A DNA stretch of 64,000 nucleotides from a virus. The stretch is from IMG/VR virus record IMGVR_UViG_3300042502_000941, positions 19,455 through 83,454 of that record. One strand, written 5' to 3'. Positions 3,681 through 63,863 of this stretch are shown here, in pieces. The translations under genes and the position numbers were made by a program. Under the pieces are notes generated by a model. That model did not search any database, was not told the origin of the DNA, and was given only the letters and a program-made list of their open reading frames with translations. Positions within the stretch are counted from its first letter, which is position 1. Every line of letters starts with the position of its first letter.

Positions 3681-6600
3681 TTAGGAACTAAAACTAGCAC
3701 CTGTTGGTAGAATGTTGAAATCAAGAATAATGAATTCAGCAGTTCTAGTTGGTTGGATGAAGATTTGTCCGTAAAGAACATTACGATCAATCAAGTCAGG
3801 AGTATTGTTTTCATCGTCCATTTTGACTTGGAATGCGTAGATACCGTTACGTTGTTGTACTGATTCCAAGTATGGAGTTACAATACTCAAGAAACGATTT
3901 CTTGTAGAAGCAACGTTTTGTTCGAATACCAAGTAGTTGCTTGAACTTGCGATAAACTTCTTCAAGTTGATCAACAAACGACGTACATTGATACGATCCA
4001 AAGCGCTTGGGGCGATTTGTAGAGTCTTTTGACCCCATACACAGATACCTTGACCGGGGAATGCTGCGATTGGATTTACACGACCTTCGTACAACGTATC
4101 ACGTTCACCGTGGGTTACACGATCAAGTACTTGTACAGCGGTTGCAATACCACCACGGTTTAGACCTGCTGGAGCGTACCATTCAGCAGCGGAGTTATCG
4201 TTAGCAGCGTAAACTGCTGGTAATACCACTGAAGGAGGAACATTGATAATCTTGTTGGTGTTAGTATCTAGGATCTTAACCCAAGGATAATAAGTACCTA
4301 CATAATTACTGTCGATTGTGGCTACACTGTTGATAGCTGCATCAATCAATCCTACGGTTTGATTGCTTGCTGGGAACACTACGTTATCCATAATGTAGAA
4401 ACAATCTTGACGAGTTTCACACATATCGATAACCAATTCAGTTACATAACTGTGTTGTTCACGGAATATACCTGGGGTTACAATCAAGTTGATATCAAAT
4501 TCATCTGGATTACCGATTGCAGCAATAGATTGCTTATAAGCGATACTACCAGGACTATTGATATTTGTACAATCTAAACCTTGTGTATTACCAGCTGTAA
4601 TATTACCACCCACATTGATTGGAATTGCTGGCCATTGACCTTCAAATCCGCCTTGGAATCCAAGTACGAACTTACGTAGTCTGACATATGTAGATTCATT
4701 TACAGCGTCGTAAACACTTGGAATACTACCACTCAATGTTGGAGATAGTAATGATCCTGTACTCACGTATGTACCCTGAGCATAGAATTTACTATTTGTT
4801 GTACCCCATACCTTATCTTCTAAATCGAAGTCGATATTTGCACCATTACTATCAGTTGATCCATAGTATGGCAATGGCTTGAAGTATTGCTTAGTGTTAT
4901 TTTCTACACCTACACCAAATGAAGATGTTGGATATAGAGCTTGAATTTCAGTGTCAGTACCTGGTACACTACCAAATACTGTACCTGATGGATACTTACC
5001 AGGCCCTAGACCGTAGATACTTGCCTTACTGTATTGTATAGCAGGTACATAACTACTTGCAGTACTATCAATAGGTGTACTATATGATTCAAATCCGTAT
5101 GGTACGCAACTTACTGGGTAAGAAACGTCACTGGCTTCAATTCTGATATACTTACTTAATGTGGTAAAATCACCGAATTGAATTATTTTACCAGCATAAG
5201 TGATATATGCATATCTGTTACCAATTCTACGAGCAACATAGTTTGCGGATTCTGGATCCAAATTCAAGTTTTGATAGATTTCCAAATACTTTGGCTTCTT
5301 ATCAGTATCACTATAAGCACGTACTGATAGTGTGAAACTACCCCATTCACTGCCTGGGACAGTACCAGACAACTTAACGTTGCTGATTTCAATCTTGAAC
5401 TTAGTGTTACTTGGTGTGCCATCGCTCAAAGTGTGAACTTTGAACAACTTGAACTTAGTTGGTGAAGCGGCTACATCAGCACTACCTTTGAATGGAGCAA
5501 TCTTTTGACTGTAGATCCAAGGGGTAGAAGCATTGGTGATGCTAAATTGACTATCGCCGTTATTCAAATCAGTACTATATTGATCGACAAACTTTAGAGG
5601 TTCGCCAACAATTGAACTTCCTGATAGATTGCTTGTGCCTACTTGTAGTTTCCATCCATAAGCACTTGTCTTTTCAGCTACGAACTTCTTGATGCTATCT
5701 TCGAATAGAACGTAGTTGTAAGCAGCTTCAACTTTTTGACCAGCCACTTGTTTATTAGGATTGCCAACGGTTGGATCCATACCAAATACGTCTTTGATAT
5801 AGTTATTATCGTTTTCATTTAAACTGAAGTCGTAGTAACCATATGTACCAGCACTTGTGCCACCAGCTGTATTTGTATAACTATACTTTAATGCCAAGTT
5901 GTAAACATTTGCATTAGGGTCGATTACATTCTTATATGGGAATGTACTACTTGTCAATTGGCTCAATGTTGAGGTATTGAATCCGTATACTTCATAATCA
6001 TTGCTAAATTGTGTAGAAGCATTTTGGGTATTTGCTAATACTGACAAGATCAACTTTTGACGACCTGTTAGTACTGGATTACATTGATCTGGGCTTGCAT
6101 TGTCTTGACTTGTAAATGCGCCACTATACTTACCGAAGTCACCACTTATCACACCTATTACTTGTAGACCGGCTACACAACTTCCAACACCACGTAGTGA
6201 ATGGAAACTACCACTTTGTAGTGTTAGTGTTGTGCCTGCTTCTACATTGAAGTTTGATAAATTGTAAGCGATATTACCATTGAAGTAAGATGAACTTACT
6301 AGATCAACGGTTGTTGTACTTTCATCAAATGCTGTGGCCACGGATGTTTCGGCATCTATATTTGCGCCTTGTAAACTTGATGTCAACAAGAAGAATTTAG
6401 TACCAACTGGCTTTGCATTACCATTTGCTAGAGTAGCGGTACTAAATTTACGTACTAATAACCCAGAAGAAACTGTACCGATATCAACTGTTTTATTAGC
6501 GTACAAGATACTACCACTTAACTTACCTACACCGTCAGCGTCATCTGCAGTTACACCACTTGTTACAGCTGCGGATCCGAATTTTACATTCAACGATCCA

Positions 6601-7595
6601 CTGATTGTCATCGTCGAAATATCAATGCGTTGTACCAATTGAATTGAAGAACTCAATCCAGCACCACTCAAACTCGCAGTTGTAAATGATAATGATGAAT
6701 TTGCACCGTAGTTAGCAAAAACCAAACCAAATGTATTTGGAGCAGTAAATGATGCGGTTAAGTAATTATTGTTTGAACTATCAAATGTTAGTTTGAACTT
6801 ACTTGAACCACCACCTCCGACAGTAACACTACCACTTATACGCGATTTATCAAAATCAAATGCGGCCAAAGAATGATCTACTGAAGATCCCGCTTTTGCA
6901 ACTTTACCGTTTCTGGCAACAACAGAGCTGCTAAACAATTCATAATGTCTTGTGGAAACAACTTTGTATACTTTACCCAAACTGGATGAAGTTGCCAAAG
7001 AAGCTGAAAGTGCATTGATTCCAGTAACACTTCCGACTGTAGCTAAATATGATGAAATTTCAGCAGTTGTTGCTCTCGTAAATGTAGCTGATCCTGTTAT
7101 ACCACTGCCTACTGAACCCTTAATTTCAGCCGAACCAGTGATGTTAACAGCGGTACTAGTTTGTTGATAATTAACGTTTGATACATAGTCAGTAGTATCA
7201 ATATACATAAATGAAGCTGTTGTGATAGCTCCTTTATCAGCGTTTCTGTCCCAGATACCTGGTTGGGCATATACAATCAATGGATTCTTTTGCCAGTAAC
7301 CGGTTAGACCACCTACACGAACAATAGTAACTATACCTTGTTGTAGTAGATATTCTTTCGCTGTGTATGGTCCATAATACACACCATCAGCGACACCGAA
7401 TCTTGTTTCCAAGTCGGATACGCTGGTTATTGTATTTGGAAAAAACGCTGGTCCGTCAGCGAATGGAGCAATAATTGCTCCTCCAATGTTTGCTACTCCT
7501 TGAGCCAGACCGGAGAGGTCATTTTCACGTGTGAATACACCTGGGCTTACTATATTTTGTGTTGGGGCGAATCTTCCGCCTTCTGTTATTGGCAT
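3681..7595 (-). CDS. Tail sheath protein (gp18-like) with a very large insertion
   Basis: Contractile tail sheath subunit. The conserved N-terminal part (about 1-130) has VSPGVFTRE, the GGAIIAPFADGPAF stretch and TIVRVGG. The conserved C-terminal part (about 1000-1304) includes the TPGIF segment, AGLNRGG and the terminal strand region that forms the sheath handshake. Between them lie roughly 850 residues rich in Ser, Thr, Gly and Asn. At 1304 residues it is about twice T4 gp18 (659). The start at 7595 is supported by a good ribosome site (AAAGGAT) and an upstream TATTTATA. The insertion probably forms surface domains on the sheath and is a plausible substrate for the adjacent glycosyltransferases. 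Confidence 0.92.
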   Translation of the reverse strand: MPITEGGRFAPTQNIVSPGVFTRENDLSGLAQGVANIGGAIIAPFADGPAFFPNTITSVSDLETRFGVADGVYYGPYTAKEYLLQQGIVTIVRVGGLTGYWQKNPLIVYAQPGIWDRNADKGAITTASFMYIDTTDYVSNVNYQQTSTAVNITGSAEIKGSVGSGITGSATFTRATTAEISSYLATVGSVTGINALSASLATSSSLGKVYKVVSTRHYELFSSSVVARNGKVAKAGSSVDHSLAAFDFDKSRISGSVTVGGGGSSKFKLTFDSSNNNYLTASFTAPNTFGLVFANYGANSSLSFTTASLSGAGLSSSIQLVQRIDISTMTISGSLNVKFGSAAVTSGVTADDADGVGKLSGSILYANKTVDIGTVSSGLLVRKFSTATLANGNAKPVGTKFFLLTSSLQGANIDAETSVATAFDESTTTVDLVSSSYFNGNIAYNLSNFNVEAGTTLTLQSGSFHSLRGVGSCVAGLQVIGVISGDFGKYSGAFTSQDNASPDQCNPVLTGRQKLILSVLANTQNASTQFSNDYEVYGFNTSTLSQLTSSTFPYKNVIDPNANVYNLALKYSYTNTAGGTSAGTYGYYDFSLNENDNNYIKDVFGMDPTVGNPNKQVAGQKVEAAYNYVLFEDSIKKFVAEKTSAYGWKLQVGTSNLSGSSIVGEPLKFVDQYSTDLNNGDSQFSITNASTPWIYSQKIAPFKGSADVAASPTKFKLFKVHTLSDGTPSNTKFKIEISNVKLSGTVPGSEWGSFTLSVRAYSDTDKKPKYLEIYQNLNLDPESANYVARRIGNRYAYITYAGKIIQFGDFTTLSKYIRIEASDVSYPVSCVPYGFESYSTPIDSTASSYVPAIQYSKASIYGLGPGKYPSGTVFGSVPGTDTEIQALYPTSSFGVGVENNTKQYFKPLPYYGSTDSNGANIDFDLEDKVWGTTNSKFYAQGTYVSTGSLLSPTLSGSIPSVYDAVNESTYVRLRKFVLGFQGGFEGQWPAIPINVGGNITAGNTQGLDCTNINSPGSIAYKQSIAAIGNPDEFDINLIVTPGIFREQHSYVTELVIDMCETRQDCFYIMDNVVFPASNQTVGLIDAAINSVATIDSNYVGTYYPWVKILDTNTNKIINVPPSVVLPAVYAANDNSAAEWYAPAGLNRGGIATAVQVLDRVTHGERDTLYEGRVNPIAAFPGQGICVWGQKTLQIAPSALDRINVRRLLINLKKFIASSSNYLVFEQNVASTRNRFLSIVTPYLESVQQRNGIYAFQVKMDDENNTPDLIDRNVLYGQIFIQPTRTAEFIILDFNILPTGASFSS

Positions 7596-52130: not shown

Positions 52131-52316
52131 TTATTTAGTTGGATCTCCAGACGAAGCTTCTTCTACTATAGCTTTAATTTCAGATTCAATTTCTTTCATT
52201 CGATCTTTGTATCCACTAGCTACATCCTTAAAATCTTTTCTAACATGCAAAAGATCTTCAGTTAATTGATACACTTTCTTTTCGGCTTCGGCCTTCGTTA
52301 GTTTAATATTACTCAT
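52131..52316 (-). CDS. Small helical protein
   Basis: 61 residues, helical (MSNIKLTKAEAEKKVYQLTEDLLHV). Its start overlaps the end of the ADP-ribosyltransferase-like gene by 4 nt, so the two are coupled. Family unknown. By analogy with toxin operons it could be a partner or antitoxin, but nothing in the sequence proves this. Confidence 0.5.
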   Translation of the reverse strand: MSNIKLTKAEAEKKVYQLTEDLLHVRKDFKDVASGYKDRMKEIESEIKAIVEEASSGDPTK

Positions 52317-52723
52317 AACTTTTTTAAATCTATAATTTTTGTTACTGATTCTATCGGTATATAACTAGTAACATAATTGCCTGGATCTACATTTTTTAAA
52401 TCAGGTAACTTACTTTTATCTATTACAACCACTATACCTTCTCCAGCGTCTCTGTAATTGACCAACGCAAACCTAGCTGCCAATTTAAAATCACTCGCTA
52501 GATAACTACCCACGATGTTTCTGGTATTTCCCTTACCTTTCGACGTAACTCTACCAGTACTCTTTAAAATATTATATTCTTTCTCAGACATTCCTCTATA
52601 AAGTTTAGAACTGTCGATTGGAATTTTATCCAATTCATCCGCAATATATTGCAATTTTCCAGTCGGTTCCCATACTAGATAATCATATATGCTTGATTCG
52701 TATAATAAACTATATCTTTTCAT
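52313..52723 (-). CDS. ADP-ribosyltransferase-like protein with capsid-targeting-like N-terminus
   Basis: 136 residues from the second of two adjacent ATGs, 5 nt after the late motif. LYRGMS (R43) fits the first conserved arginine of the ART fold. GSYLASDFKLAARFAL (72-87) matches the central S-T-S-like strand and helix. The third conserved acidic motif (E-x-E) is not clear, so activity is unproven. MKRYSLLYE at the N-terminus matches the T4 capsid-targeting peptide (MKTYQEFIAE) closely. T4 packages Alt, an ADP-ribosyltransferase, by the same signal. The 3' end overlaps a small helical gene. Confidence 0.5.
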   Translation of the reverse strand: MKRYSLLYESSIYDYLVWEPTGKLQYIADELDKIPIDSSKLYRGMSEKEYNILKSTGRVTSKGKGNTRNIVGSYLASDFKLAARFALVNYRDAGEGIVVVIDKSKLPDLKNVDPGNYVTSYIPIESVTKIIDLKKL

Positions 52724-52728
52724 CATTA

Positions 52729-52768: not shown

Positions 52769-53154
52769 TGGTGGAGATGGCGGGGAGTCGCACCCCGCGT
52801 CCATAAAAAATTATTACTGCCAGACTACACGTTTATATATTTTAAATTGTTGGGAAGTAATAATTAAAAATATCTAAAAATATTACCCTTAAGATTTACC
52901 ATTTTCTCAGCCATTTACGCAAATCAAATATTTGGCCCAGTCCAATAATTTACACCCAATACAACTATCAGACTTCATTGTATTGAATGTGCAACAACTT
53001 AGGCTGCAAGGGCTACAACGTCATCATAAGAGAAGTCATAGCTAACTACGTTATCTTCAGCAGTTAATTTTCAATAGAACTTTTAAAGAGGCCAACTATT
53101 ATCCTCTACGTGCCTAACAATAGATATTTATCTATGTCGAAACTACACATCCCC
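52769..53154 (-). ncRNA. ssrA: tmRNA (ssrA) with a 20-residue tag
   Basis: 386 nt. The 5' end GGGGATG pairs with CATCTCC next to an encoded CCA, forming the alanyl-type acceptor stem. The D-like segment is TAGTTTCGACA. The reading frame at 52999-53061 gives the tag AEDNVVSYDFSYDDVVALAA and then TAA, with an A-rich approach to the resume codon GCT. The T-arm has a 6-bp stem (GCGGGG / CCCCGC) and the loop TGCGACT, instead of the usual TTC-type. The tag ends LAA like host tags that target proteases. The tmRNA rescues stalled ribosomes. A weak -10-like TAAAAT precedes the 5' end. Confidence 0.93.
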
Positions 53155-55830: not shown

Positions 55831-55906
55831 TGGTAGGTGGTATAGGATTTAAACCTATGACATTTTGCGTGTAAAGCAAATGCTCTATCAACTGAGCTAA
55901 CCACCC
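55831..55906 (-). tRNA. tRNA-Val(TAC) with compensated 19-56 pair
   Basis: 76 nt with CCA. Anticodon loop TTTACAC. The D-loop reads TTGATA (G18 A19) and the T-loop TTTAAAT (U56), so the usual G19-C56 pair is replaced by A19-U56. Confidence 0.9.
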
Positions 55907-62483: not shown

Positions 62484-62557
62484 TGGTTGGCTATCACGGT
62501 ACCGCCCCGTGTTCTTTCGATTATCAGTCGAATGCTCTACTATTGAGCTAATAGCCA
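62484..62557 (-). tRNA. tRNA-Ile(GAT), non-canonical elbow
   Basis: 74 nt with CCA. Acceptor TGGCTAT / ATAGCCA, anticodon loop CTGATAA. D-loop AATAGTA (A18 G19) and T-loop GGCGGTA (G54, G55, C56, G58). Confidence 0.88.
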
Positions 62558-62892: not shown

Positions 62893-63642
62893 TTAAACGT
62901 TACTTTGTTTCTTTGGATATGGTTGAATTGACTTAATCAATCCACCCAATATTCTTTTACCATCACTAGAATTTTGTCCGGATAAAATATAAATGTACAT
63001 ATGTTTTCCAGTAGCCGTTCTTATTTCAAATGGACTATTAGGATTGGTTCTTGCATCATTTGCTGCATCTTTACCAGTTTCAAAACCATACTTCTTTATT
63101 TGTGGTAATCTATACACCCACTTGTTTTCTTTTTTATCCCATAAACGTTTTGTATCTTTACTCTTGCCTAAATAAATTGCATTTGTTGCTTGATATATAG
63201 ATCCGGTATGTCCCTGTCCACTATCAGCTCTGGTAATAACCACTTTTAATTCGGGATAATCTTGTTTAATCTTTTTATTACCCAAACCAATTACATACGA
63301 CGCCAAGTTGCTTAACTCAGGTATTTGTTTTGCCTCAGGTTTCAAATATAATCTCAATAATTCAAATACCTCATTCTTTTGCAATAAACTGTTGCCCTCT
63401 GCATCTACAGCTATTTCTTCATAATCTTGTGGCTTGGTGGTTTGTCCATAAACAATCACTCCTACCATATCCACATTACCATCTGGCTTCTTGTACATCA
63501 CACCATAATTAGCAGCCACCGCCGTAGGATATGTCTTTAAATAATGCTGCTTAATAAAATTCAATACTTCAGATTTACTCTTGGGTTCCAAATATACACT
63601 ATCTTTCAAACCCTCCAACATTAAGTATTTCAATTTAATCAT
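62893..63642 (-). CDS. Mom-like DNA-modification protein with capsid-targeting-like N-terminus
   Basis: 249 residues. ELLRL (94-98), ASYVIG (114-119) and the block ITRADSGQGHTGSIYQATN (136-154) match phage Mom proteins, GNAT-fold enzymes that modify adenine in phage DNA to resist restriction. The N-terminus MIKLKYLMLE fits a capsid-targeting peptide (cleavage after E10), which Mu Mom lacks. The late motif is 4 nt before the ATG. If packaged, the protein could act on incoming DNA or host targets. Modification chemistry here is unknown. Confidence 0.68.
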   Translation of the reverse strand: MIKLKYLMLEGLKDSVYLEPKSKSEVLNFIKQHYLKTYPTAVAANYGVMYKKPDGNVDMVGVIVYGQTTKPQDYEEIAVDAEGNSLLQKNEVFELLRLYLKPEAKQIPELSNLASYVIGLGNKKIKQDYPELKVVITRADSGQGHTGSIYQATNAIYLGKSKDTKRLWDKKENKWVYRLPQIKKYGFETGKDAANDARTNPNSPFEIRTATGKHMYIYILSGQNSSDGKRILGGLIKSIQPYPKKQSNV

Positions 63643-63788: not shown

Positions 63789-63863
63789 TGGCCCGGCAGG
63801 TTGGTAACGCTCCAACATCTCGTCCTCTTCAGGGACACGCTAATCTATTTCAGCTACTACCGG
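63789..63863 (-). tRNA. tRNA-Phe(GAA), non-canonical elbow
   Basis: 75 nt with CCA. Acceptor CCGGTAG / CTGCCGG, anticodon stem TGTCC/GGACG with loop CTGAAGA. D-loop AAATAGAT (A18 G19) and T-loop AGCGTTA (A54, G55, C56, U58). Confidence 0.85.

Follow-up and report, generated by a model that had tools for sequence, protein, structure and literature searches.

We consider it very likely that the gene described here provides a large T4-superfamily phage, which probably grows on a Bacteroidota bacterium, with a functional tmRNA of the one-piece type, and that this RNA joins a long tag to a tRNA-like domain of an exchanged form (type B, described below). The gene is complete and occupies 52769-53154 on the minus strand of the window, i.e. 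the whole stretch of 64,000 nucleotides that was analysed, which belongs to an 83,454-bp record of a large freshwater virus of bacteria. The earlier note had placed a complete ssrA gene at these positions, naming no strand, and had proposed a covariance-model scan as a check. The Rfam model RF00023 returned identical coordinates with a score of 102.2 bits (E 8.4e-39), far over its gathering cut-off of 47 bits, and all 374 model positions (1-374) are covered. ARAGORN found the neighbouring tRNAs, which form two gene clusters near the tmRNA gene, and did not report the tmRNA itself; an annotation resting on that program would therefore miss it. Chance can be ruled out as the origin of the match because of the E-value, the recurrence of the gene among related viral records (16 of 25), the covariation in the acceptor stem and the coding constraint on the tag. 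For the gene adjoining it downstream (52313-52726, minus strand, 137 aa), neither Pfam nor PDB yielded a relative.

All parts of the tmRNA can be located on the minus strand. The acceptor stem is composed of a 5' strand GGGGAUG (53148-53154), which holds G3 of the alanine identity pair G3-U70, and a 3' strand CAUCUCC (52773-52779), followed by the discriminator A and an encoded CCA (52769-52772); after this ACCA comes TTTTTATT, a T-rich stretch. The D-loop region UGUAGUUUCG (53138-53147) contains AG in place of the canonical GG, as judged by comparison with type A relatives, and the T arm GCGGGG-UGCGACU-CCCCGC (52780-52798) has a 6-bp stem and G55. The tag reading frame of 20 codons lies at 53002-53061 and its stop codon TAA at 52999-53001. 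The window gene thus shows G3-U70, the encoded CCA, and a tag frame that includes a resume codon and a stop and is constrained as coding sequence. The D-loop/T-loop contact GG/UUC, which is usual in tmRNAs and not strictly defining, is replaced by AG with UGC here, and is canonical in type A. In a set of 21 distinct phage tmRNAs, pairing of the acceptor stem is complete (100%), four of its seven pairs change on both sides, and G3-U70 is present in every one (21/21). Double-sided changes were also found in all five T-stem pairs and in several pairs of the long-range helix.

The encoded tag is AEDNVVSYDFSYDDVVALAA, 20 residues followed by TAA, so that 21 residues would be added in all, including the alanine carried by the tmRNA. 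A degenerate DNA pattern of the tag core retrieved 53 stretches from IMG/VR, nearly all of them tmRNAs of the same family, which places this tag family in about 50 viral contigs. Its consensus is A[ED][DE]NV[VI][SA]YDF[SN]YD[DE]V, then V, T or nothing, then A[LIV]A[AT]; the YDF(S/N)YD core is invariant, and the C-terminus is ALAA, AIAA or AVAA in nearly all variants, with AVAT in a single one. Over 15 distinct tag sequences we obtained pS 0.40 and pN 0.08 (ratio 0.20), the variable columns fall at the third codon position 15 times, at the first six times and at the second three times, and length differences are whole codons. Therefore, judged from these substitution patterns, the tag is very probably translated and selected. 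A tblastn search of named phages with the tag gave no match, although a query of 20 aa is close to the shortest that this method can handle.

The tag is indeed unusually long, as the earlier note had held: the commonest length in the tmRNA database is 10 aa (PMC11915505). A comparison with host tmRNAs, also proposed there, was carried out on about 70 sampled Bacteroidota tmRNAs, whose tags have about 9-10 aa, for example GENNYALAA, ANDYSYAMAA and DNNYSYRLAA. One of them (locus L215) has the same resume context as the phage gene, TTAACT-GCT-GAA, and the tag AENNYALAA. The phage tag may be read as AEDN, some 11-12 further residues, and ALAA; it looks like a Bacteroidota tag of the AENNYALAA type that was lengthened inside by about 11 residues and is now specific to the phage lineage. 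The expectation that the tag should point to the host group did not hold. Its pattern gave nine chance matches in 84,980 species genomes, none of which is a tmRNA, and a related pattern gave no match in 297 Bacteroidota genomes; the tag was rejected as a host marker, since its family occurs in viral contigs and in none of the cellular tmRNAs searched. Clues to the host come instead from the capsid and portal relatives and from the resume-codon context.

The other proposal, that the tag reflects a changed protease preference, finds no support at the C-terminus. ClpX recognises a tag ending in LAA, as established in E. coli. The ALAA, AIAA or AVAA end is kept, and host ClpXP therefore still appears to be the likely protease. 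A different fate of the tagged products has to be weighed nevertheless: the tmRNA might work while its long tag alters recognition, which would become slower, dependent on an adaptor or directed to another protease, so that the products are spared or sequestered. The roughly 11 extra residues with their invariant core, and the lack of any such tag in the sampled hosts, speak for this possibility, but the retention of a ClpX-recognised pattern in nearly all variants (with the one AVAT) makes it unlikely in our view. As to the reason for the added length, our best guesses are that it provides an unstructured leader helping the protease to start or an adaptor site in YDFSYD.

The phage location of the gene is borne out by its surroundings. 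The window encodes a tail sheath protein together with T4-type tail-fibre and baseplate-like proteins, and a closely related record carries the gp23 capsid and portal genes as well as genes for the large subunit of ribonucleotide reductase, a DnaB-like helicase, RecA and a fused nuclease of the SbcD/SbcC type. In that relative the major capsid protein, Gp23, is 49.5% identical to that of Microcystis phage Mel-JY01 and 48.5% identical to that of Flavobacterium phage immuto, and the next matches are huge phage LR756508, Rhodothermus phage RM378 and huge phage LR756511. The portal matches agree in the main with these relatives and include Flavobacterium phage immuto. By these protein relationships the record is assigned to a myovirus lineage of the T4 superfamily. 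The host is probably a Bacteroidota bacterium, which is the most likely group because the gp23 relatives include Flavobacterium phage immuto; against it stands the closest capsid match, which leads narrowly and comes from a phage whose annotated host is Microcystis.

At the DNA level, no near relative was seen among named phages, and blastn of the tmRNA against them matched only 38 bases, in Acinetobacter phage BUCT628. At this phage's unannotated positions 1001-1100 (L132), what appears to be a tmRNA 3' end is followed by a tmRNA 5' end, so that the match looks like part of another phage tmRNA, possibly a circularly permuted one. Several other genes are also worth recording. The tail sheath protein of the window (3681-7595) has 1304 aa, but its sheath domains are confined to the final 300 residues, which leaves a very long N-terminal part. 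The window further encodes a Mom-family DNA modification protein at 62893-63642 (PF25680, E 2e-24), and a relative (L123, 6969-8744) encodes a phage protein that combines ankyrin repeats with a weak match to a nucleotide-cyclase domain.

Comparison of the phage tmRNAs reveals two forms of the tRNA-like domain. Type A (GGGCGYG...UGG...T-loop UUCRACU) is found in most lineages, the most diverged included, and type B (GGGGAUG...UAG...T-loop UGCGACU) is the form in the window; type A is probably the older of the two. When L016 (type B) is compared with L019 (type A), the middle of the gene is 100, 100 and 97% identical, whereas the tRNA-like segments are 42% (5') and 66% (3') identical. L097 and L108 form a similar pair, as do L024 and L067 in another tag background. 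Since nearly identical gene middles are combined with diverged tRNA-like ends, recombination between the tag and tRNA-like domains appears to have taken place at least twice. Two further copies (L013, 1410-1796; L029, 849-1235) have a type A 5' half, a type B 3' half and two acceptor mismatches. They may be recombination intermediates or assembly chimeras, the latter because the sequence between the two ends is about 97-100% identical among the strains.

Because these copies join mismatched halves, not every copy of the tmRNA need be functional. Recombined ends and chimeric copies, together with the common use of tmRNA 3' ends as integration sites (PMC11915505), would suit a captured host gene that persists as a functionless passenger or as a site of recombination. 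Such an origin would hardly account for a pN/pS of 0.20, compensatory changes and wide retention, and we regard it as very improbable next to a working tmRNA whose tRNA-like domain has been exchanged.

The type B domain differs from type A at the elbow, where the D-loop has AG instead of GG and position 55 is G instead of U, with a coherent alteration on both sides of the 18-55 contact. G18-U55 is treated as a conserved contact in a review (PMC7912444). The same change is found in tRNAs of these phages: 113 of 138 distinct tRNAs have GG with U55-C56, and 11 lack GG and have G55-C56, mostly with AG in the D-loop. The A18/G55 type covers about nine species (Gln, Trp, Asp, Cys, Thr, Phe, His, Ile and others), and in the window it is represented by tRNA-Ile (62484-62557) and tRNA-Phe (63789-63863), with AG/G55 in place of GG/U55. 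The association between D-loop GG and T-loop base 55 gives a Fisher p of about 7e-9, a value that overstates independence because related tRNAs are counted separately. None of the 55 tRNAs of huge phage LR756511 carries the AG/G55 exchange. A separate variation is seen in tRNA-Val of the window (55831-55906), which has GA with UUU, as if G19-C56 had changed to A19-U56. Within the literature open without subscription, we found no paper on the replacement of G18-U55 by A18/G55 in phages. Its occurrence in both tRNAs and tmRNA offers a natural test of how far a conserved elbow can change.

G55 in place of U or pseudouridine could weaken the tRNA-like fold. It might be asked whether the RNA is a decoy that inhibits trans-translation of the host, like the RNA of mycobacteriophage DS6A, which consists of the tRNA-like domain only; phage precedent for such an inhibitory form (PMC4131195, PMC11915505) and the unusual type B elbow lend this some plausibility. 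A decoy, however, needs neither a complete tag frame under purifying selection nor conserved pairs along the RNA, and we see scarcely any chance that the RNA serves in this way.

Two relatives suggest a further variation at the 3' end. The tmRNAs of L022 (the same gene as in L037) and L068 lack an encoded CCA, and directly after the discriminator A they continue with AAGTGCA...GAATGCCACCTTCACGTTGGTTGCACTTGAGTAACGCTAAGAGCATTC. This motif can form a 7-bp P1, a P2 and a 3-bp P3 with an 8-nt loop, in an HDV-like catalytic-C context. A hand-built descriptor locates this HDV-like (theta-type) nested double-pseudoknot motif flush with the tmRNA ends, near 6495 in L022 and near 5902 in L068, and the same core follows CCA-less tRNA 3' ends near 117 in L005, near 3716 in L022 and on the minus strand of L086. 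The raw count of the descriptor does not exceed that obtained with shuffled sequence: 31 hits there stand against 20 distinct motifs here, some of them present at more than one locus, and the two numbers were counted differently. Only the exact position at tRNA or tmRNA ends and the shared core are therefore taken as evidence. No Rfam HDV-family match was obtained at the motif, even at a relaxed threshold, and searching IMG/VR for the tmRNA-ribozyme pattern returned the same two contigs only. The motif is absent directly after the window tmRNA, and no gene for a CCA-adding enzyme was found in the 13-14 records searched.

During infection, broken mRNAs and stalled ribosomes are to be expected. 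The phage tmRNA would be charged with alanine by the alanyl-tRNA synthetase of the host, bind host SmpB and enter ribosomes stalled on broken mRNA. Alanine and AEDNVVSYDFSYDDVVALAA would then be added to the unfinished protein; after release at UAA the chain would be degraded, most probably through recognition of its C-terminal ALAA by host ClpXP. Host SmpB and host ClpXP are assumed because no SmpB gene was found in 14 records and no ClpP gene in 13-14 records, all of which are fragments of genomes that could encode either protein elsewhere. The benefit to the phage would presumably lie in extra tmRNA that recycles ribosomes for its own use. More tentatively, and with somewhat less than even confidence, we propose that the tmRNA is modular: a long phage-specific tag domain would have been recombined with alternative tRNA-like ends. 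One of these would carry the rewired A18/G55 elbow common to the phages' own tRNAs, which might help it to escape host enzymes or defences that target tRNAs; another would owe its mature 3' end to self-cleavage by an HDV-like ribozyme. Why phages carry a ribosome-rescue RNA becomes testable through a lineage-conserved tag that is about twice the host length and was seen in none of the cellular tmRNAs searched: peptides bearing it in infected cells would reveal the origin of the proteins that the phage marks, and their fate.

Phage tmRNAs are uncommon, as the earlier note stated, with 402 cases in 18,146 phage genomes (about 2%; PMC9004378). They are known from mycobacteriophages Bxz1 and Wildcat and Bacillus phage G (PMC4131195), OM43 phage Melnitz (PMC9004378) and huge phages (PMC7162821). 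The present gene resembles all of these in being a complete ssrA within a phage genome, but it belongs to a different lineage, in which the tag is long and peculiar to that lineage and the tRNA-like domains have been exchanged; the Melnitz tmRNA, moreover, is two-piece and riboswitch-linked, whereas ours is one-piece. The huge phages LR756508 and LR756511, which are capsid relatives, also carry tmRNAs, but with tags unlike ours in sequence: that of LR756508 (L139, 92434-92880), read by eye, has about 36 aa, GVNNADYESAGFTAEDFAQMDGESLYHGSERKPAAV, and ends in PAAV rather than LAA, and that of LR756511 is the 9-aa ANPEFAMAA. With the Bacteroidota-type one-piece tmRNA (RF00023) the gene shares the full-length model match, G3-U70, the resume context and the ALAA end, and differs in its tag of 20 rather than about 9-10 residues and in the type B elbow AG/G55. 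Theta ribozymes after phage tRNAs are known (PMC10879173), and in our relatives a ribozyme-like motif adjoins the 3' ends of tRNAs without an encoded CCA; tmRNA is unmentioned in that report, whereas in L022 and L068 the motif follows a tmRNA. If it is a ribozyme, theta ribozymes would extend from tRNA to tmRNA maturation. Phage tmRNAs as such were already known, and the novelty lies in the long tag specific to this phage lineage, in the exchange of the tRNA-like domain with its A18/G55 elbow and, in relatives, in the ribozyme-like neighbour.
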